NCBI RefSeq assembly: GCF_023074055.1
Contig: NZ_JADPKR010000013.1
Coordinates: 186,001 to 250,000 of the forward strand
DNA from: Bradyrhizobium sp. 141
GTDB lineage: Bacteria > Pseudomonadota > Alphaproteobacteria > Rhizobiales > Xanthobacteraceae
Length of the DNA: 64,000 nt
Direction: 5' to 3'
The translations under genes were made by a program, and so were the position numbers. Below the pieces are notes generated by a model. It saw nothing but the letters and a program-made list of their open reading frames with translations, was not told the DNA's origin and searched no databases. Below, piece after piece: positions 17,844-58,650 of the stretch. Every line of letters begins with the position of its first letter. The stretch's first letter is position 1.

Positions 17844-17854
17844 GAGACGTAAAG

Positions 17855-18175
17855 ATGCACGCCGAACTTTATACCGATGGAATCGAAGAAATTACCGTCA
17901 GCGGCACCATCGTCCGTGTCGATCTGGTCAGTCTTTCACCGACGGAGCGCGACGCAAACAATGCCCCCAAGCGAGTGTTTTCGCAGCGATTGATTTTTTC
18001 GGTCGAATCCTTCGCCAATTCGGTCGATGTGATGCAGAAGGCGCTTCAGGGCCTAGTTGACGCAGGCGTGGTCCGGAAGAATCCGTCAGTTCAGTCGCAC
18101 AACGGTGCGTCGGGAATACATGATGCGCTGGCGCCCAACACACGGTCTCTGAATGTCTCTTCGAATTTCCGCTGA
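17855..18175 (+). CDS. Small protein of unknown function in the type I secretion operon
   Basis: A 106-residue soluble protein lying 11 bases after the giant gene and overlapping the next ABC gene by 23 bases. AGGAGACG sits before its ATG, so translation looks real. It has no signal peptide, membrane segment or cysteine. The first 70 residues look like a compact alpha/beta fold (GIEEITVSGTIVRVDLV, then RLIFSVESFANSVDVMQKAL); the C-terminal 35 residues look disordered. The strand-then-helix pattern faintly recalls small DUF3467-type proteins, but I cannot assign it. Its position between substrate and exporter suggests a chaperone, regulator or accessory role (inference). Confidence 0.7.
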   Translation: MHAELYTDGIEEITVSGTIVRVDLVSLSPTERDANNAPKRVFSQRLIFSVESFANSVDVMQKALQGLVDAGVVRKNPSVQSHNGASGIHDALAPNTRSLNVSSNFR

Positions 18176-20372
18176 AATGGACGTCGCTGGCGGCGCGAAA
18201 GACCAGGTTGCGGATACGCCCGCGCCCGGATTGTCAATGCAGACGGCATTGGAATGCCTTTCCAGGGTTTCCGGTCACCATGGCATAGATCTGCCAGTCG
18301 AGCGCTTAAAGCATGCCTACGCGGTAGCCGCCCCGATCTCGTTGAATCTTCTGTTGCGCATGGCGAAAGATGCGGGCTTGCGCGCGAGAAGCACGGAACT
18401 GGATTGGGGCGCGCTGATTCGTCTCGGAGAAGCCTATCCGGCGCTGGCGAGGCTCGCCAATGGCAACTGGATCGTTGTTCTTGGCGCGGGACGGCGAGCT
18501 GACGGCGCCGAGGTCGTCAGCATCTTCGACCCGCTAGCCGACCGCAAGCACGAGGTCTTGGTTGTTGATCGCGACCGCTTCTGTGCCCAGTGGGCCGGCG
18601 ACACGATCCTGATCAAGCGCGAGCCGTTGACACAAGATGGTCGGAGGAGTTTCGGCCTCCGGTGGTTCGTACCGGAATTGCTTCTTCAATGGCGACTGTT
18701 TAGGGACGTCGCCATTGCCGCCATCCTGCTCTACGCGTTGGGCCTCGTCGTCCCGATCTTTTTCCAGCTCGTCATCGACAAGGTTCTGGTTCACGAGAGC
18801 TTCACCACTCTTTATGTACTCGCGGCAGGAGCAGGCGTAGCGCTCGTCTTCGACGCCATATTCGGCTTTCTGCGGCGCTACCTGCTGCTGTATGCGACCA
18901 ACAGGGTCGACATTCGCGTTGCGACGAAGACGTTCGGTCATCTCCTCGGGCTGCCGGTCACCTTCTTCGAGCACATGGCCGCGGGGGTACTGGTCAAGCA
19001 CATGCAACAAGCGGCGCGGATCCGCGAGTTTCTGACCGGGCGACTATTCTTGACGACCCTCGACGCGCTCTCGTTGTTCGTCTTCCTGCCGGTCCTTGCG
19101 CTCTACAGTGTCAAATTGACTTTGATGGTCCTGGCCTTCACCGCCGCGAGCGGCGCTGTTGTCGGCCTGCTCATGGGCCCTTTCCGGCGACGTCTTTACG
19201 ATCTTTACCAGGCGGAAGGTGCGCGGCAGGCTCTTCTCGTCGAAACAGTCCATGGTATGCGCACGGTGAAGACGCTGGGCATGGAGCCAGCGCAGAGCAG
19301 GGTTTGGGATAGCCGATGTGCGCAGTCCGTGACCATGCGATTCGGTGTCGAGAAGATTTCCGCAGGCGCCCAGGCGCTCACCGGATTTCTCGAGAAGATT
19401 ATGACGCTTGGAATCATTTCTGTCGGAGCACTCGATGTCTTCGCCGGAGAAATGACAATCGGCGCGCTAGTCGCTTTCAACATGTTGGCCGGCAGGGTCT
19501 CCGGACCACTGGTCCAGCTCGTGACAATGGTGCACGAATACCAGGAAGTGGCGCTTGCCGTGAAAATGCTCGGCGAGGTCATGAATCAGAAGCCTGAACG
19601 TGACGGTCGGAAAGATGGGCTGCGGCCCGACCTCGCCGGCAAAATCGAGTTCGACAGTGTCTCTTTCCGCTACGGAGCCGAGGGAGCGCCGGCGCTTGAC
19701 GATGTCTCCTTCACCATCGAGCCAGGCTCGATCTTCGGGATCGTGGGCCGAAGCGGCTCCGGCAAGACGACGCTCACAAGGCTGATTTCGGGCATGTATC
19801 CGGTGCAGCAGGGGCTGCTGCGTATCGACGGATATGATTCGAGAGAGTTCGACCTCGCACATCTGCGCCGAAACCTCGGAATCGTCCTACAGGACAACTT
19901 CCTGTTTCGCGGGACGGTTCGCGACAATATCGCCTGCGTGAAAAGTGACGCGACCTTTGCCGAGGTCGTCGCTGCAGCGCAGCTCGCTGGCGCCGACGAA
20001 TTCATCGAGAGGTTGCCCCGTGGCTTCGACACCATGCTCGAGGAAGATGCCTCGAACCTGTCCGGCGGGCAGAAGCAGCGACTCGCGATCGCGAGGGCTC
20101 TGATTGTCAATCCACGAATCTTGATTTTCGATGAAGCGACGAGTGCCCTCGACTCCGAAAGCGAAATGATCATCCGGCGCAATCTCCGCCGTTTGGCGGC
20201 AGGGCGTACCGTCATCATCGTCTCGCATCGGCTGTCGATGCTGACCGAGGCAAGTCAGATCCTGGTGATGGACCGCGGCCGAATCGTCGACGTGGATCGC
20301 CACGACCATCTCCTGTCGAAAAGCACCATCTACAGACACTTGTGGAACCAACAGATGAAGCAGATTGCATGA
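18153..20372 (+). CDS. Type I secretion ABC transporter with cysteine-less C39-like domain (HlyB type)
   Basis: A 739-residue inner-membrane exporter. Residues about 28-150 form a peptidase-C39-like domain. Aligned with HlyB, the catalytic cysteine position is serine (SMQTALECL), so it should bind substrate rather than cut it. The membrane domain spans about 175-430. The ATPase domain has Walker A GRSGSGKTT (about 532), LSGGQKQR (about 636), Walker B ILIFDEATSALD (about 657) and a SHRLS switch. The start could instead be the ATG at 18177, one base after the stop of the small upstream gene. The HlyD gene follows with an ATGA overlap. Probable cargo is the giant DUF4082 protein. Confidence 0.9.
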   Translation: MSLRISAEMDVAGGAKDQVADTPAPGLSMQTALECLSRVSGHHGIDLPVERLKHAYAVAAPISLNLLLRMAKDAGLRARSTELDWGALIRLGEAYPALARLANGNWIVVLGAGRRADGAEVVSIFDPLADRKHEVLVVDRDRFCAQWAGDTILIKREPLTQDGRRSFGLRWFVPELLLQWRLFRDVAIAAILLYALGLVVPIFFQLVIDKVLVHESFTTLYVLAAGAGVALVFDAIFGFLRRYLLLYATNRVDIRVATKTFGHLLGLPVTFFEHMAAGVLVKHMQQAARIREFLTGRLFLTTLDALSLFVFLPVLALYSVKLTLMVLAFTAASGAVVGLLMGPFRRRLYDLYQAEGARQALLVETVHGMRTVKTLGMEPAQSRVWDSRCAQSVTMRFGVEKISAGAQALTGFLEKIMTLGIISVGALDVFAGEMTIGALVAFNMLAGRVSGPLVQLVTMVHEYQEVALAVKMLGEVMNQKPERDGRKDGLRPDLAGKIEFDSVSFRYGAEGAPALDDVSFTIEPGSIFGIVGRSGSGKTTLTRLISGMYPVQQGLLRIDGYDSREFDLAHLRRNLGIVLQDNFLFRGTVRDNIACVKSDATFAEVVAAAQLAGADEFIERLPRGFDTMLEEDASNLSGGQKQRLAIARALIVNPRILIFDEATSALDSESEMIIRRNLRRLAAGRTVIIVSHRLSMLTEASQILVMDRGRIVDVDRHDHLLSKSTIYRHLWNQQMKQIA

Positions 20373-21796
20373 AGGAGACGAGGCCATCACGCGCAGATGC
20401 GAAGCCGATCGGTCTGGTCCCGGCCAGACCGGTCGAGCGACGGCGAAAGCTATTCAGGTCATCGCCGAGGCGAGCGCCAGTCATCGCCGAATTCCAGTCC
20501 GATGCCACCGAGGTCGAGCAGCAAGCGCCGCCGCGGCTCGCGCGTCTCACCCTCTACGGCATACTTGCGCTGATCGTCTTCGCGGTCACCTGGGCATCCG
20601 TTTCGCAAGTGGAGATGATCGTCACGGCGCAGGGAAAATTGACCACGACACGTCCCAATATCGTCGTGCAGCCCTTGGAAACGTCGGTCATACGCGCGAT
20701 CCACGTCAAGGCCGGCGATCGCGTCAACCGCGGCGACGTTCTGGCTACGCTCGATCCGACTTTCTCGCAGGCGGATTTCGACCAATTGCGTGGCAGAGTG
20801 GCTGGTTTCGATGCGTCGATTGATCGCCTTGGCGCCGAATTGAATGGAACCGAGTACGCGGTCAAGGAGCTGATCAATGTGGACCAGGTCCTGCAGGGCA
20901 AGTTGTTCTTGCAGAGGAAGGCCGCCTACGAGGCGCAGATCCAGAACTACGACGCGCAGATCGCGTCCGCTCGAGCCAATCTCAAGACAGCGCAGAATGA
21001 AGAGGCGGTTCTGCTTCAGCGGCTCGACACGATGCGTTCGATTGAAGCGATGCGCACCACGCTGATGGACAAGGAGGTCGGTTCGAGGCTGAACTTCCTG
21101 CTGTCTCGCGATGCACGACTTGAGGTCGAGAGCAATCTGGCGCGTGTCCGTGGCAGTATCGCCGATACCACCCATCGGCTGGAAAAGGCCCGAGCCGATC
21201 AGAAGGTATTCGCCGAGGAGTTTCGTCGCACCACCTATCAGGAACTGGTGGAGACGTTGCCGAAGCGCAATAGCGCAGCAGAGGAATTGAAGAAGGCCGA
21301 GCTTCGGCGGCAGTTGATCGTGCTGCAGGCACCCGCAGATGCCGTGGTGCTGGATATCGCAAACCGGACAGTCGGCTCGGTGGTTCGCGAAGCGGAAACG
21401 CTGTTTGTCCTGGTTCCACGTGACGTGCCGCTTCAGGCGGAGGTCAACGTCGAGGGGCGGGATATCGGTCAGGTGGCGCTTGGACAATCGGTCCGGATCA
21501 AGTTCGAAGCGTTTCCTTTCCAGAAGTATGGAACTGCAACGGGCGAAGTCCGCGTCATCAGTCAGGACACGTTCTCGCCTGATACGAAGGCCGAAGGTGC
21601 GCGCCGCGCGCCAGCTCCCTATTACCGCGTACTGGTCGATTTGTCGGACACGCACCTTCGGCTGCCGGCTGAGCGCATTCAACTGATTCCGGGTATGGCG
21701 GTGACGGCCGAATTGAAAGTCGGCAAGCGCACCGTGATCTCCTATTTCCTCTATCCATTGCTACGCGGATTGGATGAAAGCATCCGGGAGTACTAG
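20369..21796 (+). CDS. HlyD-family membrane fusion protein
   Basis: A 475-residue periplasmic adaptor that links the ABC exporter to an outer-membrane channel. A cytoplasmic N-terminus of about 60 residues precedes one membrane helix (YGILALIVFAVTWASV). A biotinyl-lipoyl-like half follows (VIRAIHVKAGDRVNRGDVL), then a long coiled coil at about 150-310 and the beta-barrel/second lipoyl half with IKFEAFPFQKYG. The chosen ATG overlaps the ABC gene stop as ATGA. No TolC-like gene is present, so a channel encoded elsewhere is presumably used. Confidence 0.92.
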   Translation: MKETRPSRADAKPIGLVPARPVERRRKLFRSSPRRAPVIAEFQSDATEVEQQAPPRLARLTLYGILALIVFAVTWASVSQVEMIVTAQGKLTTTRPNIVVQPLETSVIRAIHVKAGDRVNRGDVLATLDPTFSQADFDQLRGRVAGFDASIDRLGAELNGTEYAVKELINVDQVLQGKLFLQRKAAYEAQIQNYDAQIASARANLKTAQNEEAVLLQRLDTMRSIEAMRTTLMDKEVGSRLNFLLSRDARLEVESNLARVRGSIADTTHRLEKARADQKVFAEEFRRTTYQELVETLPKRNSAAEELKKAELRRQLIVLQAPADAVVLDIANRTVGSVVREAETLFVLVPRDVPLQAEVNVEGRDIGQVALGQSVRIKFEAFPFQKYGTATGEVRVISQDTFSPDTKAEGARRAPAPYYRVLVDLSDTHLRLPAERIQLIPGMAVTAELKVGKRTVISYFLYPLLRGLDESIREY

Positions 21797-43184: not shown

Positions 43185-45590
43185 ATGGCGACCATTCCTC
43201 TGAGCTGGGATGATCCGATGTTCAGCAACGTTACGAATTCGACTGGGGGCGCCATTCCAAATGGCGGGACGCTTTCGAACGCAAGCATTACCGATTTCAG
43301 CGGCGACGCCGTTGTCGGAGGCTTTGGCTCGTTCAACCTCGACACCATCCGTATCGAGGCAAGGGAAGGCGTGCGAATTGCGGGGAGCGGCGACATAAAC
43401 ATCAGCAATTCGTATATTGAAACAACGGGACAAGCGGGCGATCACGCCGATGGCATTCAGGCCTATGCTCCCGGCGGCACCGGGAATTTGACGGTTACGA
43501 ACACGACAATTGTCGGCCACGCCAATGGTAATGACACCGCTGGGATCTTCATTGCAGACGAATACAGTGGAACAGTTACATTGGATAATGTGGTGTTCGA
43601 AGGTGGTCAGTTTGGTTTGCGGGTCGCCGCGGATACAAGCGATATCTACGTCTCCATGAAAGACGTGTACTTTGTGGGAACGACCTATCTCTTTCAGGAG
43701 GTCAATGCGCCCATACACATCACTCAGTGGGAAAATGTACGCTCCGCAACAATTGTGAATGGTCAACTTGTTCCGGGTGATCTTATCGAGCCCCCTTGGC
43801 CGGTTGAAGGTGGGACTGCGCCCTCCGCGCCCACCGTACCGGATGCACCCACTATCACTTCGTTCTCGACCGACAGCGGTGCGGCTGGCGACAAGATCAC
43901 TAACGACAACACCATCGAGCTCAAGGGTGCCGCTGCTGCCGGCAGCATGGTCAAGATCTACGACGGTGCGACCCAAATCGGTTCGACGACTGCGAACTCA
44001 AGCGGCAGTTGGGACTACATCACAAAGGTCCTGACCGACGCCAAACATACGCTCACCGCAACGGCGACCAGCACGTCGGGGCAGACCAGCGCGGCGTCGT
44101 CTGCGTTGGCAGTCACCGTCGATACCAAAGCGCCGACTGCGCCGACCATTGCTAGCAATGCGGTGAACAGCGCCAATCAGGTGGTGATGTCGGGCAATGC
44201 CGAAGCGAGCAGCGTCGTAAAGGTGTTTGACGGCACGACCCAGATCGGGACCGCGACCGCCAACAGCAGTGGCGTGTGGAACTATACCACCAGCGGCCTT
44301 GCGGCCGGTTCGCACAGTCTCACCGCGAAGGCAACAGACGCGGCAGGCAACACCAGCGCGGCGTCCACCGTGGTCACGGCCAGCACCGGCACCTCGACGT
44401 CCCCATCCGCACCGACGTCCCCAACCACACCGACGTCACCAACTGCTGGCAAGCAGATCGAGTCGAATGGCGCGACAACTCTCGTTGAGAGCGGCGGCAA
44501 ATATTACCTCAACGGCAGCAGCGGATCGGGCCCCACGCTGAAGAGCAAGGGTGTGGATTTTGTGGACGGGTCAGATGGCACCTGGGCACCGATTGCTGCG
44601 GAGAAGACCGCGACGGGCTATCAGGTTGTCTGGAAAGAAGGCGGCGGTTACTACACTGCCTGGAACACCGACAACAATGGCAACTACGTTTCCCATGTCA
44701 GCACCCTGACCGGCTCCACGTCGGGTGGCTACGTGTCGGGTTCGAATGCCAGCCTCAAGTCGCTTGAGACGAGCTTCCATCAGGATCTCAACGGTGACGG
44801 TCAGATCGGTACTTCCACTGCAACCACCCCGACGTCCCCAACCACACCGACATCGCCAACTTCTGGTACGAAAATCGAGTCGGCTGGTGCGACTACTCTC
44901 GTTGAGAGCAGCGGCAAATATTACCTCAACGACAGCGCCGGATCGGGCCCCACACTGAAGAATAAGGGAGTGGATTTTGTGGACGGGTCGGATGGCACTT
45001 GGGCACCGATTGCTGCGGAGAAGACCGCGACGGGCTATCAGGTTGTCTGGAAGGAGGGCTCCGGACTCTATACGGCCTGGAACACCGACAGCAACGGTAA
45101 CTACGTTTCCCACGTCAGCACCCTGACCGGCTCCACGTCGGGTGGCTACGTGTCGGGTTCGAATGCCGGCCTCAAGTCGCTTGAGACGAGCTTCCATCAG
45201 GATCTCAACGGTGACGGACAGATCGGTGCTTCCAGCCTAGCTACGTCGTCCACGAGCACCAGTCAGGTCGTTGCTACTTCGAGCTCGACAGGCAGCAACG
45301 TACAGACGAGCACTTCAGGCAATGAGGTCTTCGTTGGCACCAGCAAGGCAGACACTTTCTCGTTTGCCGCGAACTTCGGCAACGACGTCATCAAGGGCTT
45401 CGTTGCCGGCGGAGCTGCCCACGATACGGTCGAGTTCAGCAAGTCCGTGTTCGACAGTTTCGCGAGCGTTCTCTCCCACGCGGCCCAGTCAGGCGGCGAC
45501 GTCGTGATCGCGGCGGGGAGCGGCGACACCCTCACGCTGAAGAACACGCAGCTCGACAAGCTGAACAGCCACGACTTCCATTTCGCGTAG
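43185..45590 (+). CDS. Type I secreted beta-helix protein with Ig-like, W-rich and RTX-like C-terminal modules
   Basis: An 801-residue protein without a Sec signal. Residues 1-210 are a pectate-lyase-like right-handed beta-helix (ADGIQAYAPGGTGNLTVTNT). Two bacterial Ig-like domains cover about 220-400 (TIELKGAAAAGSMVKIYDG). A Pro/Thr/Ser linker leads to two W-rich modules (about 425-545 and 565-685) with GATTLVES, WAPIAAEKTATGYQVVWKE and FHQDLNGDGQIG. The last 95 residues (GNEVFVGTSKADTFSFAANF and onward) look like an RTX-derived type I secretion tail. The exporter follows at once. Glycan binding or cleavage is plausible; catalytic residues are not evident. Confidence 0.82.
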   Translation: MATIPLSWDDPMFSNVTNSTGGAIPNGGTLSNASITDFSGDAVVGGFGSFNLDTIRIEAREGVRIAGSGDINISNSYIETTGQAGDHADGIQAYAPGGTGNLTVTNTTIVGHANGNDTAGIFIADEYSGTVTLDNVVFEGGQFGLRVAADTSDIYVSMKDVYFVGTTYLFQEVNAPIHITQWENVRSATIVNGQLVPGDLIEPPWPVEGGTAPSAPTVPDAPTITSFSTDSGAAGDKITNDNTIELKGAAAAGSMVKIYDGATQIGSTTANSSGSWDYITKVLTDAKHTLTATATSTSGQTSAASSALAVTVDTKAPTAPTIASNAVNSANQVVMSGNAEASSVVKVFDGTTQIGTATANSSGVWNYTTSGLAAGSHSLTAKATDAAGNTSAASTVVTASTGTSTSPSAPTSPTTPTSPTAGKQIESNGATTLVESGGKYYLNGSSGSGPTLKSKGVDFVDGSDGTWAPIAAEKTATGYQVVWKEGGGYYTAWNTDNNGNYVSHVSTLTGSTSGGYVSGSNASLKSLETSFHQDLNGDGQIGTSTATTPTSPTTPTSPTSGTKIESAGATTLVESSGKYYLNDSAGSGPTLKNKGVDFVDGSDGTWAPIAAEKTATGYQVVWKEGSGLYTAWNTDSNGNYVSHVSTLTGSTSGGYVSGSNAGLKSLETSFHQDLNGDGQIGASSLATSSTSTSQVVATSSSTGSNVQTSTSGNEVFVGTSKADTFSFAANFGNDVIKGFVAGGAAHDTVEFSKSVFDSFASVLSHAAQSGGDVVIAAGSGDTLTLKNTQLDKLNSHDFHFA
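44460..45235 (+). repeat. Duplicated W-rich module, 417-base spacing
   Basis: Two copies of the W-rich domain lie 417 bases (139 codons) apart, highly similar at nucleotide level, separated by a short Thr/Pro/Ser linker. In-frame internal duplication. Confidence 0.8.
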
Positions 45591-45683: not shown

Positions 45684-47618
45684 ATGATGGACTTTAGACG
45701 GCGGGGGGTGATCCCCCCGCCTGCGAATCTTTTTCGTATTCCACTTCTGCACATATCCGGACTATGGGCTGGCGGAGGACAGTCGGCGGATGACGCCGAA
45801 CTGCGGACGCCGCGACTAGTCGGCTGGGCAAAGCGCTCGGTCGAAGTCCTGCGGCAACGGATATTCGCTGGTCGATCCGGGCCGGCGAAGGATTATGACG
45901 AGCCGCAATCAGAGATGTCGGCTTTCCTGCGGTCTTGCCGCCGGATTTTCTGGGCGCTCGCGGCCTTCAGCGGGATGAGCAATCTCCTCATGCTCACTGG
46001 TTCGTTTTTCATGCTGCAAGTCTATGATCGGGTGCTGCCCGGGCGCAGCATACCGACGCTGATCGCCTTGATGGTTCTGGCCACGGTGCTCTACCTGTTT
46101 CAGGGTGGGCTCGACTTCGTCAGGAGCAGGATCAGCGCGCGGGTCGGCCGCTATTTCGATGAAAGGCTCGGCATTCGCATATTCGACGCGCTTGTTCGTC
46201 TGCCTTTGAAGACCAGGGCCGATGGCGACGGCTTGCAGCCGGTGCGGGATCTTGATCAGGTCCGCGGCTTCCTGTCGAGCGGAGGGCCGACCGCGCTGTT
46301 CGATCTGCCCTGGATGCCGATCTATCTCGGTGTCTGCTTCCTCTTCCACTTCTGGATTGGCGTCACTGCGCTGGCCGGCGCGCTGGTGCTGGTCGGCATT
46401 ACTATGCTCACCGAAACGCGCACGCGAGGGCCGGCAAAGGCGTCCTCGCGTCTCGCAGTCTCGCGAACGGCACTGGCGCTCGAGGGGCGGCGAAATGCCG
46501 AGGTCCTGCAGGCCATGGGCATGCGGCAGCAGGCGGCGTTCCGTTGGCAGGATGTCAACGCGAAGTACCTCGCTGCCCATGAGCGGGCCAGCGACGTCGT
46601 TAACGGGCTGGGGGGCGCCTCCAAGATCTTTCGAGCGATTCTGCAATCGCTGGTTCTTGCCGTCGGCGCGGTCCTCGTCATCAACCAGGAATCGACCGCC
46701 GGCATCATCATTGCCGGATCGATCCTCACCGCGCGGGCGTTGGCGCCCGTCGAAATGGCCATTGCGAACTGGAAAGGGTTCGTCGCTGCGCGGCAATCCG
46801 GACGACGGCTCGATGCTTTGCTAAAACTTCTCCCCGGCGAGGAGGAGCGGCTGGCATTACCTCCTCCTGTTGAAACTCTCACCGTCGAGCATCTCTATAT
46901 TGGCGCCCCGAACTCGGAGCGGCCCACCGTCAGTGAAGTGTCGTTCCAGCTGCGAAGGGGGCAGGCGGTCGGAATCATTGGTCCGAGCGGATCCGGCAAA
47001 TCGACGTTGGCACGTGCGCTGGTCGGCGTCTGGCCGTGCATTCGAGGCAGGATCCGGCTCGACAAGGCCGCGCTCGATCATTGGTCTTCGGACGCTCTCG
47101 GCAAGCACATCGGTTATCTGCCTCAGGATGTCGAATTGTTCGACGGCAGCATTGCGATGAACATTGCACGGTTCGACCCGCAGGCAACGGCCGCCGCTGT
47201 TCTGGAGGCCTCGCATGCCGCGGGGGCGCACGACCTCATCCTCTCCCTTCCGGACGGGTACAGCACGAAGATCGGCGAGGGAGGGCTAGCGCTGTCGGCG
47301 GGGCAGCGGCAGCGTATCGGGCTCGCACGCGCCTTCTACGGCAAACCGTTCCTGGTCGTGCTTGATGAGCCGTCTTCCAATCTCGACGCCGAGGGCGAGG
47401 AAGCCTTGACCGAGGCGATTCTGAACGTTCGCCGCCGGGGTGGGATTGTTGCGGTTATCGCGCATCGGCCGAAGGCGCTGGAGGCCGTGGACCATGTCCT
47501 GTGCCTCGGGGAAGGCAGAGTTCAGTCCTTCGGCAAGAGAGAGGAGGTCCTGAAGAAGGTCTTGCGAAATCCCGTGCCGCTCAAGGTGGTCGCGGAAGCT
47601 CAAGGAGGCAACCGATGA
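45684..47618 (+). CDS. prtD: Type I secretion ABC transporter, PrtD type
   Basis: A 644-residue permease-ATPase without a C39 domain. About 75 polar N-terminal residues precede the usual PrtD start (FLRSCRRIFWALAAFSGMSN); ATG 45915 would give a standard length. The membrane domain has LMLTGSFFMLQVYDRVLPGRS. The ATPase has Walker A GPSGSGKST near 435, the signature LSAGQRQR near 538, LVVLDEPSSNLD near 557 and AHRP. It lies 93 bases after the RTX-tailed protein and overlaps hlyD by ATGA. Confidence 0.92.
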   Translation: MMDFRRRGVIPPPANLFRIPLLHISGLWAGGGQSADDAELRTPRLVGWAKRSVEVLRQRIFAGRSGPAKDYDEPQSEMSAFLRSCRRIFWALAAFSGMSNLLMLTGSFFMLQVYDRVLPGRSIPTLIALMVLATVLYLFQGGLDFVRSRISARVGRYFDERLGIRIFDALVRLPLKTRADGDGLQPVRDLDQVRGFLSSGGPTALFDLPWMPIYLGVCFLFHFWIGVTALAGALVLVGITMLTETRTRGPAKASSRLAVSRTALALEGRRNAEVLQAMGMRQQAAFRWQDVNAKYLAAHERASDVVNGLGGASKIFRAILQSLVLAVGAVLVINQESTAGIIIAGSILTARALAPVEMAIANWKGFVAARQSGRRLDALLKLLPGEEERLALPPPVETLTVEHLYIGAPNSERPTVSEVSFQLRRGQAVGIIGPSGSGKSTLARALVGVWPCIRGRIRLDKAALDHWSSDALGKHIGYLPQDVELFDGSIAMNIARFDPQATAAAVLEASHAAGAHDLILSLPDGYSTKIGEGGLALSAGQRQRIGLARAFYGKPFLVVLDEPSSNLDAEGEEALTEAILNVRRRGGIVAVIAHRPKALEAVDHVLCLGEGRVQSFGKREEVLKKVLRNPVPLKVVAEAQGGNR

Positions 47619-48928
47619 ACAGCCAGGTGGCGCCGGCGATGCAGTCCATCCAGCGTTACATGATCGTCGGTATGATCATGTTCGGTCTGGTGACATTTGG
47701 GGTCGGCGGTTGGGCGACAACGAGCCAGTTGTCGGGCGCGGTGATCGCCCAGGGCGTGGTCGTGGTGGATTCGAGCGTCAAGAAGGTTCAGCACGCCACC
47801 GGTGGGATCGTGGGTGAGTTGCGCGTGCGCCAGGGCGATCGGGTCAATGCAGGCGACGTTTTGATCCGCCTCGACGAGACTCAGACGCTCGCCAATGCGA
47901 CGATCGTCACGAACAGCATCGATGAGCTGCTCGCGCGCCAGGCTCGTCTCGAGGCCGAGCGCGATGGTGCCGAGCAATTCGTGTTTCCCAAGGTGCTGCT
48001 CGACCGAGCCAAGGAGAGCAACTCCGAGGCGAGCCGTGCAATCACTGCGGAGCGGAAGCTGTTCGACCTTCGCCGTCAGGCAAGGAGCGGCCAAAAAGCG
48101 CAGTTGCAGGAGAAAAGCGCGCAGCTGGAGAACGAGATCAAGGGCTATACGGGGCAGACCGAGGCCAAGCAGAAGGAAGTCGAATTCATCCGCCAGGAGC
48201 TGGAGGGCGTGCGCAGCCTTTGGCAGAAGAATCTGGTGCCGATCACGCGGCTCAATTCCCTCGAGCGCGACTCCGCGCGCATCGAAGGCGAGCGCAGCCA
48301 GTTGGCCGGCATGATTGCGCAATCGAAAGGCAAGATCTCCGAAATCGGCCTCCAGATCATTCAGATCGACCAGGACCTGCGGACGGAAGTCGGCAAGGAC
48401 CTGATCGAAACGCGCTCAAAACTCTCCGAACTGGGCGAGCGCAAGACTGCGGCGGTCGATCAATTGCATCGGATCGATATCAGGGCGCCACAGACCGGCC
48501 GCGTCCACGAGCTTAGCGTCCACACGGTCGGCGGGGTCATCTCACCCGGTGAGCAAATCATGCTGATCGTGCCTGACGCGGACTCGCTTGCCGTCGAGGT
48601 CAAGATCGCACCGCGCGACATCGACCAGGTCTATGTGGGGCAGACCGCGACAATGCGTTTCGCGGCGTTTAACCAGAAGACCACTCCGGAGATCGACGGA
48701 GAGGTCAGCATGGTCTCGGCAGATATCACGCAGGATCAGCGCGCCGGCACGAGTTACTACACGGGTCGCGTTCTGCTGAAGCCGGAAGAGCTGGCGAAAC
48801 TCGGGTCGGCCAAGCTGTTGCCCGGCATGCCCGTCGAGGTCTTCATCAAGACGGGAGGTCGGACCGCGCTATCCTACCTGCTCAAGCCGCTGCACGATCA
48901 GGCGGAGCGGGCGTTCAAGGAGCGCTGA
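47615..48928 (+). CDS. HlyD-family membrane fusion protein of the PrtD system
   Basis: A 437-residue adaptor. A short N-terminus and one membrane helix (YMIVGMIMFGLVTFGVGGW) are followed by a lipoyl-like half (VGELRVRQGDRVNAGDVLI), a coiled coil at about 110-300 and the C-terminal barrel with IDIRAPQTGRVHEL and TMRFAAFNQ. The ATGA overlap with prtD fixes the start. A degraded copy of its 3' end occurs at 49687-49920. Confidence 0.93.
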   Translation: MNSQVAPAMQSIQRYMIVGMIMFGLVTFGVGGWATTSQLSGAVIAQGVVVVDSSVKKVQHATGGIVGELRVRQGDRVNAGDVLIRLDETQTLANATIVTNSIDELLARQARLEAERDGAEQFVFPKVLLDRAKESNSEASRAITAERKLFDLRRQARSGQKAQLQEKSAQLENEIKGYTGQTEAKQKEVEFIRQELEGVRSLWQKNLVPITRLNSLERDSARIEGERSQLAGMIAQSKGKISEIGLQIIQIDQDLRTEVGKDLIETRSKLSELGERKTAAVDQLHRIDIRAPQTGRVHELSVHTVGGVISPGEQIMLIVPDADSLAVEVKIAPRDIDQVYVGQTATMRFAAFNQKTTPEIDGEVSMVSADITQDQRAGTSYYTGRVLLKPEELAKLGSAKLLPGMPVEVFIKTGGRTALSYLLKPLHDQAERAFKER

Positions 48929-50365: not shown

Positions 50366-50705
50366 GTGCAATCCCGATCCTGAGGCAGGAGAGCCGTTCG
50401 GGAGACGCTTTGCCCAGCGGCGGAGATTAATCAATAATTAAACTCGCGAGTTTGTTAAATTGTTGCCCTAATTGCGCGGGTCCGCGGCTCTGCGAAGCCC
50501 AACGGCTCGCAGAAGCGATGGAGCGCTCCATTGCCAAAATGGTCGATGTGCGCCCATGCGCGGGGCCGACATCAAGCCGCAATGATACAATCCGTCCCAA
50601 AATTTAATATTTATTTTATTTGAATTAATAATCCATTTTAAATAGGATGTCTCCGCACTGCCAGTGGATCCGAGCCTCAATCTGGCGTTTACGAGGGATC
50701 GGCGG
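50366..50705. promoter_or_regulatory. Gap with paired AT-rich islands
   Basis: A/T-rich segments at 50428-50465 (ATTAATCAATAATTAAAC) and 50597-50648 (AATTTAATATTTATTTTATT, CATTTTAAATAGG) surround GC-rich DNA. They probably carry promoters for the leftward small frame and the rightward protease gene. Confidence 0.4.
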
Positions 50706-51314
50706 ATGAATCGTGCGTGCGGCTCGGTTGTCGCGGCGGCGCTTGCTGTAATGATCGGTGGAACTGAATGGGCGCGCGCCGGGCGCACGGCCCCGCCGGC
50801 GACGCTGAGGGCAATCAATCCGCGCATCGAGCTGGGAAGCCCGACGCTGCCGCCCCTTGCGTACACCGCGTTCTGCCTGCGTTATGAGGCGGAATGTCTG
50901 CAGCGGCGATCGTTTCGTGGTGGGCCGATCCGGCTGACCGAGGACCGATGGGCGGCTCTGCAAGAGGTCAATCGAGCAGTCAACCTCGCCATTATGCCGG
51001 CTCGCAATGAGCTCGGCCTTGCCGGCGAGGAGTGGGTCATCAATCCCAATCACGGTGATTGCAATGACTACGCGGTGAGCAAGCGCCACGAGTTGCTTCA
51101 GCTTGGCTGGCCGGCACGAGTGCTGTTATTGGGCGAAGTCGTCCTGGGTTCTGGAGAACACCATTTGGTGCTTCTCGTGCGCACCCGCAGCGGCGACTTC
51201 GTTCTCGACAATCTCACGCCGCAGATCAAGCCGTGGTCGCTGATGCCCTATCGCTGGGTTCGCGTACAGATACCCGGCAATCATCGCCTGTGGGCGACGA
51301 TCAGGCGACCATGA
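50706..51314 (+). CDS. Periplasmic transglutaminase-like cysteine protease (BTLCP/LapG-like)
   Basis: A 202-residue protein with a signal-like N-terminus (CGSVVAAALAVMIGG). It has the LapG-type triad: GDCNDYAVSKRHEL (Cys near 118), GEHHLVLLV (His near 152) and FVLDNL (Asp near 168). LapG enzymes cut type I secreted adhesins near their N-terminus and release them from the surface, controlled by LapD and cyclic-di-GMP. No LapD-like gene is in the window. Proximity to two type I systems suggests the large secreted proteins as targets. ATG 50706 follows GAGGGA. Confidence 0.85.
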   Translation: MNRACGSVVAAALAVMIGGTEWARAGRTAPPATLRAINPRIELGSPTLPPLAYTAFCLRYEAECLQRRSFRGGPIRLTEDRWAALQEVNRAVNLAIMPARNELGLAGEEWVINPNHGDCNDYAVSKRHELLQLGWPARVLLLGEVVLGSGEHHLVLLVRTRSGDFVLDNLTPQIKPWSLMPYRWVRVQIPGNHRLWATIRRP

Positions 51315-52339: not shown

Positions 52340-53275
52340 TCAGGGGCGTCGGATGGGTCTCACGACAACAAGCTGGCCATTCTGAATGACGCAGTCATTC
52401 ACGTTCGTCCACTCGTCGATGATGAATTCGGTGATGAAAAACTTGCGGAAGCGGAACGGTCCGACAAAGCACACGTTTTTCATTCGCAAATGTGCGTTGG
52501 TGTAACCATCGGCGTGAAGACGCAGGCCAAAAGGTCCGCCCTGGAACATGACGTTTTCCAGATCAACCAGATCGGGCTTCCAGCTGTCGGCGACGAATAT
52601 CCCGGCGGTCGCCGAAGTGTTGTGCGCGACAATGGACGTATTTCGCAGAGTGATCGTTCCGTGATTGCCGGGGCCATAGGCCTGGATCACATCGGCATGG
52701 TCATCGTCTTGTCCTATCGCCTCGAGATAAGAGTCCGAGATTACGATATTGCCTTTGATCGCCCGGATACATTCGCGGGACTGGATTCGGAGCCTCGTTA
52801 GTGTGCAGCTACCCCAGCAACCAACCGTGTTATCGCCGACTTCGTAATAGATATAACTTCGATCTGTGAGTGATCCTCCATCCGGTACGCCATTGTCCAG
52901 TCGGCTGTAGGAGACAGCACTGGTAAATCGCGCATCGTTAAAGGAAAGCGGCGGTCCACTCAAAGGTATCGATGACGGAGCGGGTGCAGGAGCAGGTGGC
53001 GCGGCGGGTCTGTCTTTGCCGTTAGAACCATCAACGCCGCCATCGTAAGCGAGACGCCACCGGACATAGCCGTTCGCGCTCGTCGGATTGACGAGCTTAT
53101 CGTCCATCTGGCGCCAGGCATCGATGCGCTGCCCAGGCTTGGACTGCGGCGGCATGGATGATGCTGAAGATCCAAATGAGTTCTGCTCTTGACCCGCCAG
53201 GGTCGGCGACGTTGCTCCGATCCCCAGACTTAAAGAGATCATCGCGATAGAGGTCAATATTATTGCAGCTCTCAT
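52340..53275 (-). CDS. Sec-exported pectate-lyase-like beta-helix protein
   Basis: A 311-residue protein with a clear signal peptide (MRAAIILTSIAMISLSL, cut near TLAGQ). After a Pro/Ala-rich linker a 200-residue right-handed beta-helix follows. It is paralogous to residues 1-210 of the type I protein at 43185: DDHADVIQAYGPGNHGTITL against GDHADGIQAYAPGGTGNLTV. Four extra cysteines (TVGCWGSCTL, RECIR, VCF) may form disulfides. AGGGGG lies before the chosen ATG; an upstream ATG would hide the signal peptide. Substrate unknown. Confidence 0.82.
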   Translation of the reverse strand: MRAAIILTSIAMISLSLGIGATSPTLAGQEQNSFGSSASSMPPQSKPGQRIDAWRQMDDKLVNPTSANGYVRWRLAYDGGVDGSNGKDRPAAPPAPAPAPSSIPLSGPPLSFNDARFTSAVSYSRLDNGVPDGGSLTDRSYIYYEVGDNTVGCWGSCTLTRLRIQSRECIRAIKGNIVISDSYLEAIGQDDDHADVIQAYGPGNHGTITLRNTSIVAHNTSATAGIFVADSWKPDLVDLENVMFQGGPFGLRLHADGYTNAHLRMKNVCFVGPFRFRKFFITEFIIDEWTNVNDCVIQNGQLVVVRPIRRP

Positions 53276-53393
53276 TAATCCCCCTAAACGGCCTCGATCT
53301 TCCGAGACGTCCATATCCATGCCGTTTCTCGCGGGATGAACGATCGCTATCCCCGAACGGTCGCAGTTCGACGCTTACTATGGCCCGCACCGG

Positions 53394-56300
53394 TCAGGAC
53401 CCCACTGTGAGCCCCACAGCGGGTGTGGCTGAAGGGTCCACCCAACGTCGGATCGTGCCATCAAATATGTCGGCTCCGTAGAGCCACCCGTCGGGGCCCT
53501 TCTGCAGGTCGACGATGCCTTGTGCGTTGTTGTCCACCAACTGAACGCTGGCGATCTGGCGGTTTGCGTTCAAGGTCGCAGCGAAGATCGTTCCATTGTA
53601 GACATCGTCGAAGAACATGATGTTCTGGTTGTAGAAATCTCCCGCGGTGATCACGTGGAAATTGTCCGGGGCACCGTGGCTCTCGGCCAAGATGGGAAAT
53701 ACTGCAGGCGGGTCCGACGTATTGTTGCGGTTGCCATTGTTGTAGAAGGTGATTGCCTGGGCGAGGTCCTGGTAGCTGGCGGTTTTGTTCGGACCCTCGA
53801 GATAGGGCCAGCCGAAATTCGATCCCGCCGGACCGGTGTCCAACTCCTCCCAGCTGTCCCAACCCACATCTCCGAGCACCGGCAGATTGGTGACGGGATC
53901 GAAGCTGAAGCGATAAGAGTTGCGAACGCCGTAGTAGAAGACCTTCGACTGATTGCTGTTGGGATCGCCGGCCTGATAGAATGGATTTCCGGGCGCTCCT
54001 GCACCCGTAGTCGGGTCGATCCGCAACAGCTTGCCGGAGAGATTTTGGATGTCCTGGACCCGCACTGCACGAGGGTCCGCGAAATTGTATGACGTGCCGT
54101 CGCCCACGGTGAGATAGAGATAGCCGTCGGGACCAAAATGAACGGCACCGATGGAATGCGAGTCCCCGTCCGTCGCCAGATAATCGCGAATGTTCTGATT
54201 CTGAATCCCTGGCGAGTTCGGATCGTTGTCCTGAGCTCCAGTGTCTATCTGGCTGGCCGGAGCCGTTATGGTGGTGCCGTTGACGATACCTGATGGAGGA
54301 ATGCTGGGATCGCCGTTGCTGTCCAGGTCCGGACGGCTCGTATACGCCCAAGTGCTATTCTTGCCGACGAGTACGAACTCGCTCGCGGGATCGGCGACCA
54401 TGGTGCTTGGGTTCACAGTCACCCTCACCAGACGAGACGGTCGATTTCCGGCCTGATCGGGTCCTGCGAGTCCCGTCTGGCCCGCGGTCTCGGGCGGATC
54501 GTAGGTGTAGAGCAGGTAGACATAGGGGCTGCCTGCAAAGAAATTTGGGTTAACCGCGATCCCCAGAAGTCCGCGATCGCTGACATCGTTGACCTCGCTG
54601 GACAGGTCGATCAGCGGCGTCGATCGCAGCGTGCCGTTGTCCACCACGCGCACCACACCGTCCTTCTGCGCGACGAGCATGTAGCGGCCGTCGGGACTCC
54701 AATCGATCGCCGTTGGTTCGTTCAGGCCTGTTACGGCCGTCTGGCCCACCAGATTGCCGAGGTCGGGGTTGTCATTATCCAGGATCTTCACTGTTGTCGT
54801 CGCCTGCGCGCCCAGGGTGGCGCCCGTCGGGGTGGTCAAGTTGACGGTGAAAGTCTCGTCGCTCTCCGGTGTCGTATCGTTGATGATCGGGATGGTGATG
54901 GTCTGAGTCACCTGGCCGGCAGCGAAGGTCACTGTGCTGGACGTGGTCGTGTAGTCCAATCCCGAGACCGCGCTGCCGTTGCTGGTTGTGAAGCCGACCG
55001 TGGCAGCCTGAGTGGCACTGCCGCTGCGCAGCAGCGTGATCGTCGCTGTCGGTGTGCCCTCGGTAACGGTGACGGCGGCGTCCGCCATTGCGATGGCGGT
55101 GGGCGAGTCGTCGTCGACGATGGATACGAGCACGGTGCGCGGGGCTCCAAGGGAGCCGGAGCTGGGATTCTGAAGCCCGACGGCAAACGTTTCAGTTCCC
55201 TCGGTGAGCTGATCGTTCACAATCGAGATGGTGAAGCTCTTGGTGCTCTCTCCGGGTGCGAAGACGATCTGACCGGTGTTCGCCCGACCATTGAACGTGG
55301 GCTGAATGTAGTCCAATCCAGCCGTCGCCGTCCCAGCCGTGCCGATTTCATTCGTCGTGTACTCGACGGTCGTTTGAGACTGGAGATCGCCAGAGCGTAC
55401 GACGGTGATGGTGGCTGTGCCCCCCGCTTCACTGACGTAGACTGTGGAACTGTTGAGGAGTGCGATGACGTTGGGCTGGGCGAAGACGACATCGCGGAAG
55501 TAGTTTGCGTTCTGATAAACGTTGGTGGGGAAGACGCCCGCGGTGTAGTCGAAGACGCCGGCGCCGGCCGGAGCATTCAAGCCACCATTGCTGATGCCGG
55601 ATGCGAAGCCTTGGGTGGTGGAGACGTAGTAGCTGTTGATATTGACCGAAACCACGTAGGTCGTGCCCGCCGCGATGGTAAGTGGCGTGGCGAGCGCCTG
55701 CTGCTGCCAGCCCGATGCGCCTTCATTGGTGAAGGTGACCGTCGCCAGTTGCTGGCCGGTGGATGACCAGATGTGGCCGACATGAGTGCCGGTCTCGTTC
55801 GAGGCCTTGTAGTACCGTATCGCCTGGATCACGCCGGACGTGTCGCTGGTGAAGCGCATGCCCAGCTCGTAATCCGCCCCTATCCCGTCGCTGGCATTGG
55901 TGATGGCAGGCGTTTGGGTGGTGAATAGAATAGTACCGGAACTCGCAGTTGTAACCCCAGCGGTCGCCGCGCTGGTCACGTTCTCGCTGGTGCCGAGCAG
56001 GTCGGTGTAGGTCGTATTCACCCGGATCCGCTTGCCGACCAGGCTGCTGTCGAGAGTGAGGCTCGAGGTGGTTGCGGCGAGATTCGTCCAGGTGATACCG
56101 TCCGGGCTGCTTTGCCAGTGATATGTGATGCTCGCAGGCACGCCGTCGGGATCCGTGACGTTGGCCGTCAGCGTTTGATTCTGGGTCGCGGTACCACTGA
56201 TCGTCACGGCGCCGACGTCGTTCACATTGGCTACCATCGTGGCGGTCGCGGAGCTCACCGGGCTCTCGCTGCTGCCCAGCAGGTCCGTATAGAAGGCGGT

Positions 56301-58037
56301 GGCACGTATGAAGTTGCCGACCTGGGCCTGACCCAGGGTCAACGTTTTCGCGGTCGCGCCGGTGAAGTTGGTCCACGTGCTGCCGTTCGTGCTCTGTTGC
56401 CACTGATATGAGATCGTACCGGGCACTCCGTCCGTATCGCTCACCGTCGCGGTCAACGTCTGGTTCTGCGTCGGCGTCCCGCTGATGCTCACCGAGCCGG
56501 GGTGATTGCTGGGACTTGACGAGCCCGCGGCAAACACCACGTCGCGGAAGTAGTTGGTATTCTGATAGATGGCGGTCGGGAAAATGCCTTTTGTCAAGTC
56601 GTAGATGCCGGCGCCGGCGGGAGCGTTCAGGCCACCATTGCTGATGCCGGATGCGAAGCCTTGGGTGGTGGAGACATAGTAGCTGTTGATATTGACCGAG
56701 ACCACGTAGGTCGTGCCGGCGGTGATGCTGAGCGGGGTGGCAAGGGCCTGCTGCTGCCAGCCCGATGCGCCTTCATTGGTGAAGGTGACCGTCGCCAGTT
56801 CCTGGCCGGTGGATGACCAGATGTGGCCGACATGGGTGCCGGTCTCGTTCGAGGCCTTGTAGTACCGTATCGCCTGGATCACGCCGGACGTGTCGCTGGT
56901 GAAGCGCATGCCCAGTTCGTAATCCGCCCCTATCCCGTCGCTGGCATTGGTGATGGCAGGCGCCTGTGTGGTGAACAGAGTGGTGGTTGCACTCGCAGCT
57001 GCAACCGTGGCCGTCGCCGCGCTGGTCGCGTTCTCGCCGGTGCCGCGCAGGTCGGTGTAGGTGGCATTCACCCGGATCCGCTTTCCGACCAGGCTGCTGT
57101 CGAGAGTGAGGCTCGAGGTCGTGGCGGCGAGATTCGTCCAGGTGGTTCCGTCCGGGCTGCTTTGCCAGTGATATGTGATGCTCGCTGGGACGCCGTCGGG
57201 ATCCGTGACGTTGGCCGTCAGCGTTTGATTCTGGGCCGCGGTGCCGCTGATCGTGATGGCGCCGACGTCGTTGACATTGGCTACCGTCGTGGCGGTCGCG
57301 GAGCTCACCGGGCTCTCGCTGCTGCCCAGCAGGTCCGTGTAGAAAGCCATGGCGCGTATGAAGTTGCCGACCTGGGCCTGGCCCAGCGTCAGCGTTTTCG
57401 CGGTCGCGCCGCTAATGTTGGTCCACGTGCTGCCGTTCGTGCTCTGCTGCCACTGATAGGAGACCGTCCCGGGCACTCCGTCCGTATCGCTCACCGTCGC
57501 GGTCAACGTCTGGTTCTGCGTCGGCGTCCCGCTGACGCTCACCGCGCCGGGATGATTATTGGGGTTTTTCGAACTCGCAGCGAAGACGACGTCGCGGAAG
57601 TAGTTTGCGTTCTGATAGACGTTAGTCGGAAAGACGCCCGCGTTGTAGTCGAAGACGCCGGCACCGGCCGGGGCGGTCAGGCCACCGTTGCTGATGCCGG
57701 ATGCGAAGCCTTGGGTGGTGGAGACGTAATAGCTGTTGATATTGACCGAGACCACGTAGGTCGTGCCGGCGGTGATGGTGAGCGGCGTGGCGAGGGCCTG
57801 CTGCTGCCAGCCCGATGCGCCTTCATTGGTGAAGGTGACCGTCGCCAGCTCCTGGCCGGTGGTCGACCAAATGTGCCCGACATGAGTGCCGGTCTCGTTC
57901 GAGGCCTTGTAGTATCGGATCGCCTGGATCACGCCGGAGCTGTCGCTGGTGAAGGTCATGCCCAGCTCGTAATCCGCTCCTGCTCCATCGGTGTTGTTGG
58001 TCAGAACGGGGACCTGGGTGGTGAACAGACTTGTCAT
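53394..58037 (-). CDS. Large modular secreted protein: DUF4082/Ig repeats, Calx-beta domains and sugar-dehydrogenase propeller
   Basis: A 1547-residue protein without a Sec signal. DUF4082 modules are near residues 1-150, 350-500 and 705-853, each marked by IRYYKASNETGTHVG and FTNEGASGWQQQAL. Pairs of Ig-like domains (YQWQQSTNGSTW, YHWQSSPDG) lie between them. Two Calx-beta domains (about 856-1085) and a glucose/sorbosone-dehydrogenase-type propeller (about 1090-1547) follow. The propeller has GLLGIAVNPNF, HSIGAVHFGPDGYLYLTVGDG with a histidine near the PQQ site, SGKLLRID and GVRNSYRFSFDP. GGGAGAA precedes the ATG. Probably exported by one of the type I systems, although no secretion signal is obvious. 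Confidence 0.82.
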   Translation of the reverse strand: MTSLFTTQVPVLTNNTDGAGADYELGMTFTSDSSGVIQAIRYYKASNETGTHVGHIWSTTGQELATVTFTNEGASGWQQQALATPLTITAGTTYVVSVNINSYYVSTTQGFASGISNGGLTAPAGAGVFDYNAGVFPTNVYQNANYFRDVVFAASSKNPNNHPGAVSVSGTPTQNQTLTATVSDTDGVPGTVSYQWQQSTNGSTWTNISGATAKTLTLGQAQVGNFIRAMAFYTDLLGSSESPVSSATATTVANVNDVGAITISGTAAQNQTLTANVTDPDGVPASITYHWQSSPDGTTWTNLAATTSSLTLDSSLVGKRIRVNATYTDLRGTGENATSAATATVAAASATTTLFTTQAPAITNASDGIGADYELGMRFTSDTSGVIQAIRYYKASNETGTHVGHIWSSTGQELATVTFTNEGASGWQQQALATPLSITAGTTYVVSVNINSYYVSTTQGFASGISNGGLNAPAGAGIYDLTKGIFPTAIYQNTNYFRDVVFAAGSSSPSNHPGSVSISGTPTQNQTLTATVSDTDGVPGTISYQWQQSTNGSTWTNFTGATAKTLTLGQAQVGNFIRATAFYTDLLGSSESPVSSATATMVANVNDVGAVTISGTATQNQTLTANVTDPDGVPASITYHWQSSPDGITWTNLAATTSSLTLDSSLVGKRIRVNTTYTDLLGTSENVTSAATAGVTTASSGTILFTTQTPAITNASDGIGADYELGMRFTSDTSGVIQAIRYYKASNETGTHVGHIWSSTGQQLATVTFTNEGASGWQQQALATPLTIAAGTTYVVSVNINSYYVSTTQGFASGISNGGLNAPAGAGVFDYTAGVFPTNVYQNANYFRDVVFAQPNVIALLNSSTVYVSEAGGTATITVVRSGDLQSQTTVEYTTNEIGTAGTATAGLDYIQPTFNGRANTGQIVFAPGESTKSFTISIVNDQLTEGTETFAVGLQNPSSGSLGAPRTVLVSIVDDDSPTAIAMADAAVTVTEGTPTATITLLRSGSATQAATVGFTTSNGSAVSGLDYTTTSSTVTFAAGQVTQTITIPIINDTTPESDETFTVNLTTPTGATLGAQATTTVKILDNDNPDLGNLVGQTAVTGLNEPTAIDWSPDGRYMLVAQKDGVVRVVDNGTLRSTPLIDLSSEVNDVSDRGLLGIAVNPNFFAGSPYVYLLYTYDPPETAGQTGLAGPDQAGNRPSRLVRVTVNPSTMVADPASEFVLVGKNSTWAYTSRPDLDSNGDPSIPPSGIVNGTTITAPASQIDTGAQDNDPNSPGIQNQNIRDYLATDGDSHSIGAVHFGPDGYLYLTVGDGTSYNFADPRAVRVQDIQNLSGKLLRIDPTTGAGAPGNPFYQAGDPNSNQSKVFYYGVRNSYRFSFDPVTNLPVLGDVGWDSWEELDTGPAGSNFGWPYLEGPNKTASYQDLAQAITFYNNGNRNNTSDPPAVFPILAESHGAPDNFHVITAGDFYNQNIMFFDDVYNGTIFAATLNANRQIASVQLVDNNAQGIVDLQKGPDGWLYGADIFDGTIRRWVDPSATPAVGLTVGS
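55480..58037 (-). repeat. 1,050-base repeat units encoding DUF4082 plus two Ig-like domains
   Basis: The DUF4082 segments recur at 1,050-base spacing (350 codons), for example at 57677, 56627 and 55577, with very high nucleotide similarity. Two full units and a third DUF4082 are present. Confidence 0.8.
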
Positions 58038-58407: not shown

Positions 58408-58650
58408 TTAGGACTCCATCCGTTTCGCGATCAGATCGGCGAATTCGCCCAGGTTCCGGGCCGCCTCCACTTCGCCTAGGCGGAATCGCACCCGAAACTT
58501 CTGCTCGATCGCGATGACGAGCGAGATCTGCATGAGCGAGTCCCATTCCTCGACGTCGGCCGCCGACAGTTCGGGCTTGGCCGCAACCTTCTGAAGGAAG
58601 ATGCCGTCGAAGACCTCTTGCAACTTCGCCAGTACTTCAGCTTGCTTCAT
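58408..58650 (-). CDS. Acyl carrier protein
   Basis: An 80-residue four-helix carrier. VEEWDSLMQISLV contains the DSL motif whose serine takes phosphopantetheine. GGAGG precedes the ATG. It overlaps the FkbH-like gene by 14 bases, so the two are co-translated. Such paired carriers hold a three-carbon or short acyl unit for transfer to a sugar. Confidence 0.9.
   Translation of the reverse strand: MKQAEVLAKLQEVFDGIFLQKVAAKPELSAADVEEWDSLMQISLVIAIEQKFRVRFRLGEVEAARNLGEFADLIAKRMES

Follow-up and report, generated by a model that had tools for sequence, protein, structure and literature searches.

What does a glucose/sorbosone dehydrogenase (GSDH) propeller do at the end of a long modular protein that has no signal peptide, and which cofactor would it use? 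The question is raised by an open reading frame in a 64,000-nucleotide stretch of Bradyrhizobium sp. 141, called the window here (G000:C1:186001-250000, within an 8.5-Mb assembly). An earlier note on this DNA had described a 1547-residue protein of DUF4082, Ig and Calx-beta modules ending in a PQQ-type GSDH propeller, a domain that it said normally stands alone, and had suggested that the protein could oxidize matrix sugars if its cofactor is loaded outside the cell. The frame is intact, with an ATG start, and Pfam bears out the architecture (Table 1): from the N- to the C-terminus, the computed domain order is two DUF4082-Ig-Ig units, a third DUF4082, two Calx-beta domains and the propeller. 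GSDH (PF07995) scores 103.8 bits against a gathering cut-off of 25; DUF4082 (three copies, 407.9 bits) and Calx-beta (two copies, 131.3 bits) exceed their whole-protein cut-offs, as does IG_AIR9 (48.9 bits), for which no individual stretch passes. The DUF4082-Ig-Ig unit is a direct repeat spaced at 1050 bp, with 300-nt core copies that are 88-91% identical. That GSDH domains stand alone is mostly right, most sampled open frames running to ~380-600 aa, but fused ones recur, at 913, 1081, 1480 and 1907 aa.

Table 1. Features of the 1547-aa protein and of the neighboring exporter region, in window coordinates.
Feature	Coordinates	Strand	Basis or remark
801-aa cysteine-free neighbor (Big, W_rich_C), probably a cargo of ABC2/HlyD2	43185..45590	+	
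Type I secretion-type ABC transporter (ABC2), likely exporter	45684..47618	+	profile match, synteny
HlyD-family membrane fusion protein (HlyD2), likely exporter	47501..48928	+	profile match, co-occurrence; true start probably downstream of 47501
1547-aa modular protein, intact, without cysteine or signal peptide	53394..58037	-	ORF, Pfam, hydropathy
GSDH propeller, residues 1092-1547	53397..54764	-	Pfam, alignment to known structures
Calx-beta 2, residues 975-1089	54771..55115	-	Pfam
Calx-beta 1, about residues 855-974	55116..55475	-	Pfam; aligns with Na/Ca exchanger domains 3rb5/3rb7
DUF4082 copy 3, residues 701-850	55488..55937	-	Pfam
Ig-like pair 2, residues 503-700	55938..56531	-	sequence and repeat
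DUF4082 copy 2, residues 351-502	56532..56987	-	beta-sandwich of lectin/PHR-like kind in the AF2 model (pLDDT 93)
Ig-like pair 1, residues 153-350	56988..57581	-	IG_AIR9 166-229; pairing read from repeat structure
DUF4082 copy 1, residues 1-152	57582..58037	-	Pfam, repeat

The reading that we favor, at a probability of roughly 0.45, is that of an exported, Ca2+-stabilized extracellular matrix protein whose sugar site is of oxidoreductase type, with a cofactor that is either differently held or different. Export route, polysaccharide binding, catalysis and cofactor are what we infer here, as follows. The protein would exit the cytoplasm without a signal, most likely via the ABC2/HlyD2 exporter encoded 4.5 kb away, and fold outside the cell, where Ca2+ would fill the Calx-beta domains. 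The DUF4082 copies may serve as lectin-like anchors on polysaccharide, at the position that lectins and carbohydrate-binding modules (CBMs) occupy in cyanobacterial relatives, while the propeller would offer a putative sugar-oxidizing site (His1294, Arg1372, Asn1373 and Gly1392) to matrix sugars. The cofactor, acquired outside the cell, would be PQQ on other residues or something else. If active, such a protein would amount to an oxidoreductase put into the biofilm matrix by signal-less export, with its cofactor added there.

Conservation of the PQQ and calcium ligands, on which the earlier note had made its proposal depend, proves to be divided: the catalytic residues are kept, but the PQQ clamp is not. 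Numbered within the GSDH domain (adding 1091 gives the full protein), H203, R281, N282 and G301 align by HMMER with His144, Arg228, Asn229 and Gly247 of 1c9u, Gly247 being a calcium-site residue of sGDH, and D63 stands at the Gln76 position. His144, Arg228 and Asn229 form the catalytic trio of sGDH (PMC6881810, in excerpt). D63, H203, D222, R281, N282 and G301—D1154, H1294, D1313, R1372, N1373 and G1392 of the full protein—are invariant in 32/32 members of the family, at pairwise identities down to 35%. With 58 of the 456 domain positions invariant across these members, the naive chance that all six would be is 3e-6, a figure that is illustrative, D63 and D222 not having been fixed beforehand. 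Alignment A1 was built from the 1547-aa protein plus 23 of 34 listed loci, near-duplicates being left out.

For the clamp, we take Arg406 to be a PQQ-holding residue of the Acinetobacter enzyme. Lys377 and Arg408 contact PQQ there (PMC6881789, in excerpt). These three positions read Y389, G416 and V418 (Y1480, G1507 and V1509) in the window protein; neither Lys nor Arg occurs at these sites in a single member (0/32), and HMMER alignment to 2g8s agrees that the clamp is missing. The nearest approaches lie one residue off: four second-branch cyanobacterial proteins (L108, L109, L110 and L112) have Lys just after the Lys377 position, and L036/L037 have Arg just before the Arg406 position. Twenty other GSDH proteins served as an outside comparison only, with L043 and L060 (which looks frameshifted) left out. 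Among these are the stand-alone controls L062-L073, called Asd-type by sequence rather than assay: both arginine positions are filled by Arg in 12/12, and the Lys377 position by Arg in 10/12 and Ser in 2/12, so that the two arginines carry the clamp test. The remaining eight (L040-L042, L056-L059 and L061) are basic at the Lys377 or Arg408 position in 0/8 and at the Arg406 position in 2/8 (L041 Arg, L042 Lys); losing most of the clamp is thus not special to the Calx-beta plus GSDH family. Since trio and glycine are kept, the active site does not look inactivated, but the standard means of holding PQQ is missing. Without a Lys/Arg clamp for its carboxylates, the cofactor would be PQQ held otherwise or another molecule; other conserved basic residues, and candidates for such a role, are K34 (30/32), R248 (29/32) and H363 (31/32).

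The label "PQQ-type" given in the earlier note, which had itself named loss of the PQQ-contacting residues as the refuting observation, is not supported, in view of the 0/32 count. PQQ-dehydrogenase models match such proteins, which are easily given their name as a result. TIGR03606 (non_repeat_PQQ) reaches 67.6 bits on the 1547-aa protein, below its cut-off of 434.55. The supply of the cofactor was gauged from PqqC and PqqE in 24 holder genomes, including three that hold distant relatives only (G103, G109 and G123); holders of L030, L033, L036, L108-L115 (second-branch cyanobacteria) and of further Bradyrhizobium loci lie outside this sample. Because sub-cut-off PqqE matches occur nearly everywhere (some match in 23/24), only matches over the cut-off were counted. 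PqqC and PqqE agree, both exceeding it in 11/24 genomes (ten Bradyrhizobium and G123) and neither in the three Rhizobium, the eight cyanobacteria, G103 or G109; 13 of the 14 non-Bradyrhizobium holders tested thus have neither over the cut-off, and G159 has one sub-cut-off PqqC-like match. As 87 of the 89 Bradyrhizobium genomes carry PqqC, finding it in this genus is uninformative and only the other holders inform; the PQQ genes of Bradyrhizobium were rejected as support for PQQ use on this ground. Escherichia coli has an Asd yet makes no PQQ, and hosts without synthesis genes may still take PQQ up. Given the missing clamp and the 13/14 hosts, the PQQ label should not be copied onto such proteins untested.

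The propeller model has a mean pLDDT of 61 with pocket segments below 50; a reading of the pocket from the predicted structure was dropped on that account, and residues were mapped by sequence only. The best fold matches of this weak model are Asd 3a9g, HHIP 7pgn, 2ism and sGDH 1cru. The sGDH/Asd enzymes (Acinetobacter 1c9u, E. coli 2g8s and Pyrobaculum 3a9g) share the propeller and the equivalents of His144, Arg228, Asn229 and Gly247. Unlike them, the window family has no basic residue at Lys377, Arg406 or Arg408, and the window protein has fused surface modules and no signal peptide.

The presence of HHIP among the closest folds (ranks 2, 8 and 13, for the weak model) brings in the main rival explanation, which we consider doubtful: that the propeller is a dehydrogenase turned non-enzymatic binder, in the manner of human HHIP, with the protein in its entirety serving as an adhesin or as a cross-linker of the matrix. 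HHIP likewise has an extracellular GSDH-like propeller, and HHIP-C, which holds it, binds heparin (PMC8660895, in excerpt). Absence of the clamp in all 32 members, the adhesive look of the remaining modules and the 13 of 24 holder genomes tested without PqqC/PqqE over the cut-off would all suit such a binder. However, a protein that only binds would have no need for the trio and calcium-site glycine, yet these are invariant at identities down to 35%—a comparison made within the bacterial family, with HHIP's own residues outside it. HHIP also differs in its animal origin, its EGF repeats and its cysteine-rich-like part.

A second rival strikes us as unlikely: a conventional PQQ-dependent sugar dehydrogenase, loaded with PQQ outside the cell and holding it by substitute residues, partly as fungal AA12 pyranose dehydrogenases do. 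The AA12 enzymes (CcPDH, TrAA12) have a GSDH-type propeller and leave the cell by eukaryotic export. Their structures appear at ranks 33-35 for the weak model (E 4e-8 to 1e-7), a poorer match than Asd or HHIP (1e-12 or better). CcPDH, an extracellular enzyme of several modules, one of them carbohydrate-binding, contacts PQQ in a non-standard way: it has no Lys377 equivalent, and its Arg273 takes on a role played by Arg408 in sGDH (PMC6881789, in excerpt). That precedent, together with K34, R248 and H363 and with PqqC and PqqE over the cut-off in the window's own genome, speaks for PQQ. Against it, according to the same excerpt, CcPDH retains Arg621, conserved in bacterial enzymes, and AA12 keeps one C-terminal-side Arg contact, whereas at what we infer to be this position (that of Arg406) the window family is basic in 0/32. 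The PQQ genes point the same way, 13/14 non-Bradyrhizobium holders tested being without PqqC and PqqE over the cut-off.

The favored reading, of an exported matrix oxidoreductase, requires a way out of the cell. The earlier statement that the protein has no Sec signal is confirmed. The stop-to-stop frame is 1561 aa long; only 14 codons separate the upstream in-frame stop from the ATG, with no ATG, GTG or TTG among them, so no signal peptide can be added, and a hidden one upstream is ruled out. Over the first 60 residues, the maximal 12-residue Kyte-Doolittle mean is 1.06, compared with 2.4 for the neighboring ORFs 52340-53320 and 50664-51314 and 2.7-3.0 for the stand-alone relatives L064 and L072. 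In strain 139 (L016) the frame is open further upstream, where an earlier Met precedes a hydrophobic stretch (2.09) that is missing from the window, L039 and L017. The N-terminal region of the small ORF 52340-53320, which neighbors the GSDH gene, includes a hydrophobic stretch; this ORF is syntenic in L016 and looks by eye like the N-terminal portion of the 801-aa protein.

Neither RTX repeats nor a recognized type I target domain was found in the 1547-aa protein with Pfam and NCBIfam; it stops about 15 residues past the propeller. A shared C-terminal export signal was rejected, the post-propeller tails varying in length and letters between groups. Two distant relatives, both at 43% identity, are more telling: L105 (G109) carries the type I C-terminal target domain TIGR03661 (41.4 bits vs 17.6) and adjoins HlyD- and ABC-like genes 30-32% identical to those of the window, and L104 (G103) has RTX repeats over the cut-off, with only a distant, partial ABC match nearby. 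For L106, no ABC match was found in 20 kb. That the protein is cytoplasmic or otherwise not exported, as the lack of both a signal peptide and a recognized export tail might suggest, is highly improbable in view of these two relatives, partner domains of extracellular kinds, 0 cysteines in 1547 residues and an exporter linked to the gene.

That linkage takes several forms. The window holds two ABC plus HlyD pairs, at 18153-21796 and 45684-48928, as well as glycosyltransferase, Wzy_C and polysaccharide-synthesis genes, and the GSDH gene is convergent with the second pair. Among 149 relatives, and with 10 candidates per genome scored, a close HlyD2 (at least 77% identity) occurs in 23, all of them among the 89 Bradyrhizobium genomes: in 9/9 Bradyrhizobium holders of the module against 14/80 others (Fisher 1.3e-6, a test that counts genomes as independent, with shared descent uncorrected). 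Stops occur within eight of the 23 matches; in G040, G056 and G072 they fall ahead of the first aligned residue of the ORF. In the nine holders, module and HlyD2 lie less than 10 kb apart on one contig in five; they are 0.5 and 2.3 Mb apart on the same contig in G066 and G021, and on different contigs in G037 and G079. HlyD2 falls inside the fetched flank of 8/10 named Bradyrhizobium loci, and 19 of the 20 Bradyrhizobium genomes with DUF4082 over the cut-off have it. G040, G056 and G072, which have HlyD2 and no module, encode instead a 1907-aa GSDH protein (L097, L098 and L099) 3-10 kb from ABC2-HlyD2, in the same convergent order towards the exporter; its domains, scanned on the G040 copy, are LEPR-XLL/laminin-G/Big_7/GSDH/PKD. 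Being near-identical, these three genomes count as one case. By BLAST, the window's exporter genes were found in none of the flanks of three Rhizobium loci and, in those of 11 cyanobacterial loci, only as a weak ABC match at L035.

We consider type I export through ABC2/HlyD2 likely, and there is indirect evidence to place the protein outside the cell and link it to polysaccharide. A precedent is provided by PrsDE of Rhizobium leguminosarum, which exports signal-less, partly Ca2+-binding EPS proteins (PMC9298526, in excerpt); in rhizobia, the Rap proteins and Ply glycanases are type I-exported and act on EPS (PMC2275737, in excerpt). Rap/Ply proteins are similar in lacking a signal, acting on EPS and, in several cases, binding Ca2+; they differ in having cadherin-like or glycanase domains, with no GSDH propeller described in the excerpts consulted. 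DUF4082 is not itself tied to type I export, because for a Methylococcus DUF4082 protein the predicted route involves signal peptidase I (PMC4257694, in excerpt).

Several neighboring features deserve mention in their own right. An EglC-model match at the C-terminus of the 801-aa protein stays under the curated cut-off, and the W_rich_C-holding part of this protein contains a 417-bp tandem duplication (44412-45234, two copies, 90% matches). The stretch 10512-21796 encodes a protein of 2443 aa without cysteine, which carries DMFA2_C (dimethylformamidase-like), five DUF4082 and cadherin/VCBS-type repeats; an ABC gene with a C39-like domain and an HlyD gene follow. A Peptidase_C93 (BTLCP) gene, which we take to be LapG-type, lies near the exporter at 50664-51314 and also in 9/10 named Bradyrhizobium loci. 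LapA-type retention by way of this peptidase was rejected, as the 1547-aa protein has no [TPAS]AAG motif, assumed here to be the LapA-type cleavage motif. Between the FkbH-like and GSDH genes, a short protein at 58408-58650 is acyl-carrier-like by eye.

The partner modules suggest what the propeller may be brought to. A Pfam scan of 19 cyanobacterial proteins, 11 of them partial (L027, L030, L034 and L108-L115), found a lectin (legume, C-type or H-type), CBM6/35, CBM60, malectin or PA14, the last counted by us as a sugar-binding type, in all 19; the malectin of L027 is a weak fragment (25.2 bits vs 23). DUF4347 stands at the N-terminus of eight of the first ten, L027 and L030 being cut by contig ends. 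The alphaproteobacterial L106 has three CBM60, and no carbohydrate-binding Pfam match was found in L104 or L105. In the window protein and in Rhizobium L024, the lectin/CBM position is occupied by DUF4082. The model of this domain (pLDDT 93) is a beta-sandwich whose VIA matches include a phage fiber (Z 12.7), Cwp84 (12.2) and a PHR domain (11.3), followed by two carbohydrate-esterase entries (8.6 and 7.0). The Cwp84 entry is described as protease plus lectin-like domains, and the match covers the part taken as lectin-like. A lectin-like role for DUF4082 is plausible from this model; since the domain also resembles PHR and phage-fiber domains, sugar binding is not deducible from the fold.

The conserved unit, one or two Calx-beta domains followed by GSDH, has a patchy distribution. 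A genome-contig scan, which uses short query peptides and so covers close relatives only, returned 28 loci: four weak and partial, and 24 nearly full-domain at identities from 64% upward (10 Bradyrhizobium, 3 Rhizobium and 11 cyanobacteria). Identity of the unit is 63-74% in Rhizobium and one cyanobacterial branch, and 48-52% in a second cyanobacterial branch. Among the 149 related genomes, 63 have any match: nine, the window's own included, hold the module at 70-100%, three from other families have relatives at 42-43%, and the matches in a further 51 are all weaker. The module occurs at 48% or more in nine of 386 genomes drawn from across the cyanobacteria; several cyanobacterial assemblies are drafts or MAGs.

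In a tree of 32 domains, the rhizobial copies nest among the cyanobacterial ones, beside Pseudanabaena L027 (support 91/88, not starred), and a constraint uniting the alphaproteobacterial copies is rejected (AU p 0.005). This nesting suggests transfer of the module from cyanobacteria to rhizobia, with due caution for long branches. More broadly, there may be a GSDH subfamily, in cyanobacteria and root-nodule bacteria, that is type I-exported unfolded, builds an oxidoreductase site outside with a non-PQQ cofactor or with PQQ on K34/R248/H363, and oxidizes polysaccharides bound by exchangeable lectin-type modules, a generalization that we hold to be quite doubtful as it stands. With its seeming passage from cyanobacteria to rhizobia and its lectin-type modules exchanged around one Calx-beta/GSDH core, the family offers a clear, testable design. 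No paper joining "Calx-beta" and "sorbosone" turned up in the literature searched, where DUF4082 is mentioned in a single paper; cyanobacterial exoproteomes include the GSDH-type protein All4539 (PMC4390845, in excerpt) and a CBM2-GSDH protein (PMC4937211, in excerpt), both comparable here as GSDH-type only. One Bradyrhizobium copy, L102 (G021:C1, about 4592-4595 kb), has its GSDH domain split across two reading frames and may for that reason be non-functional.
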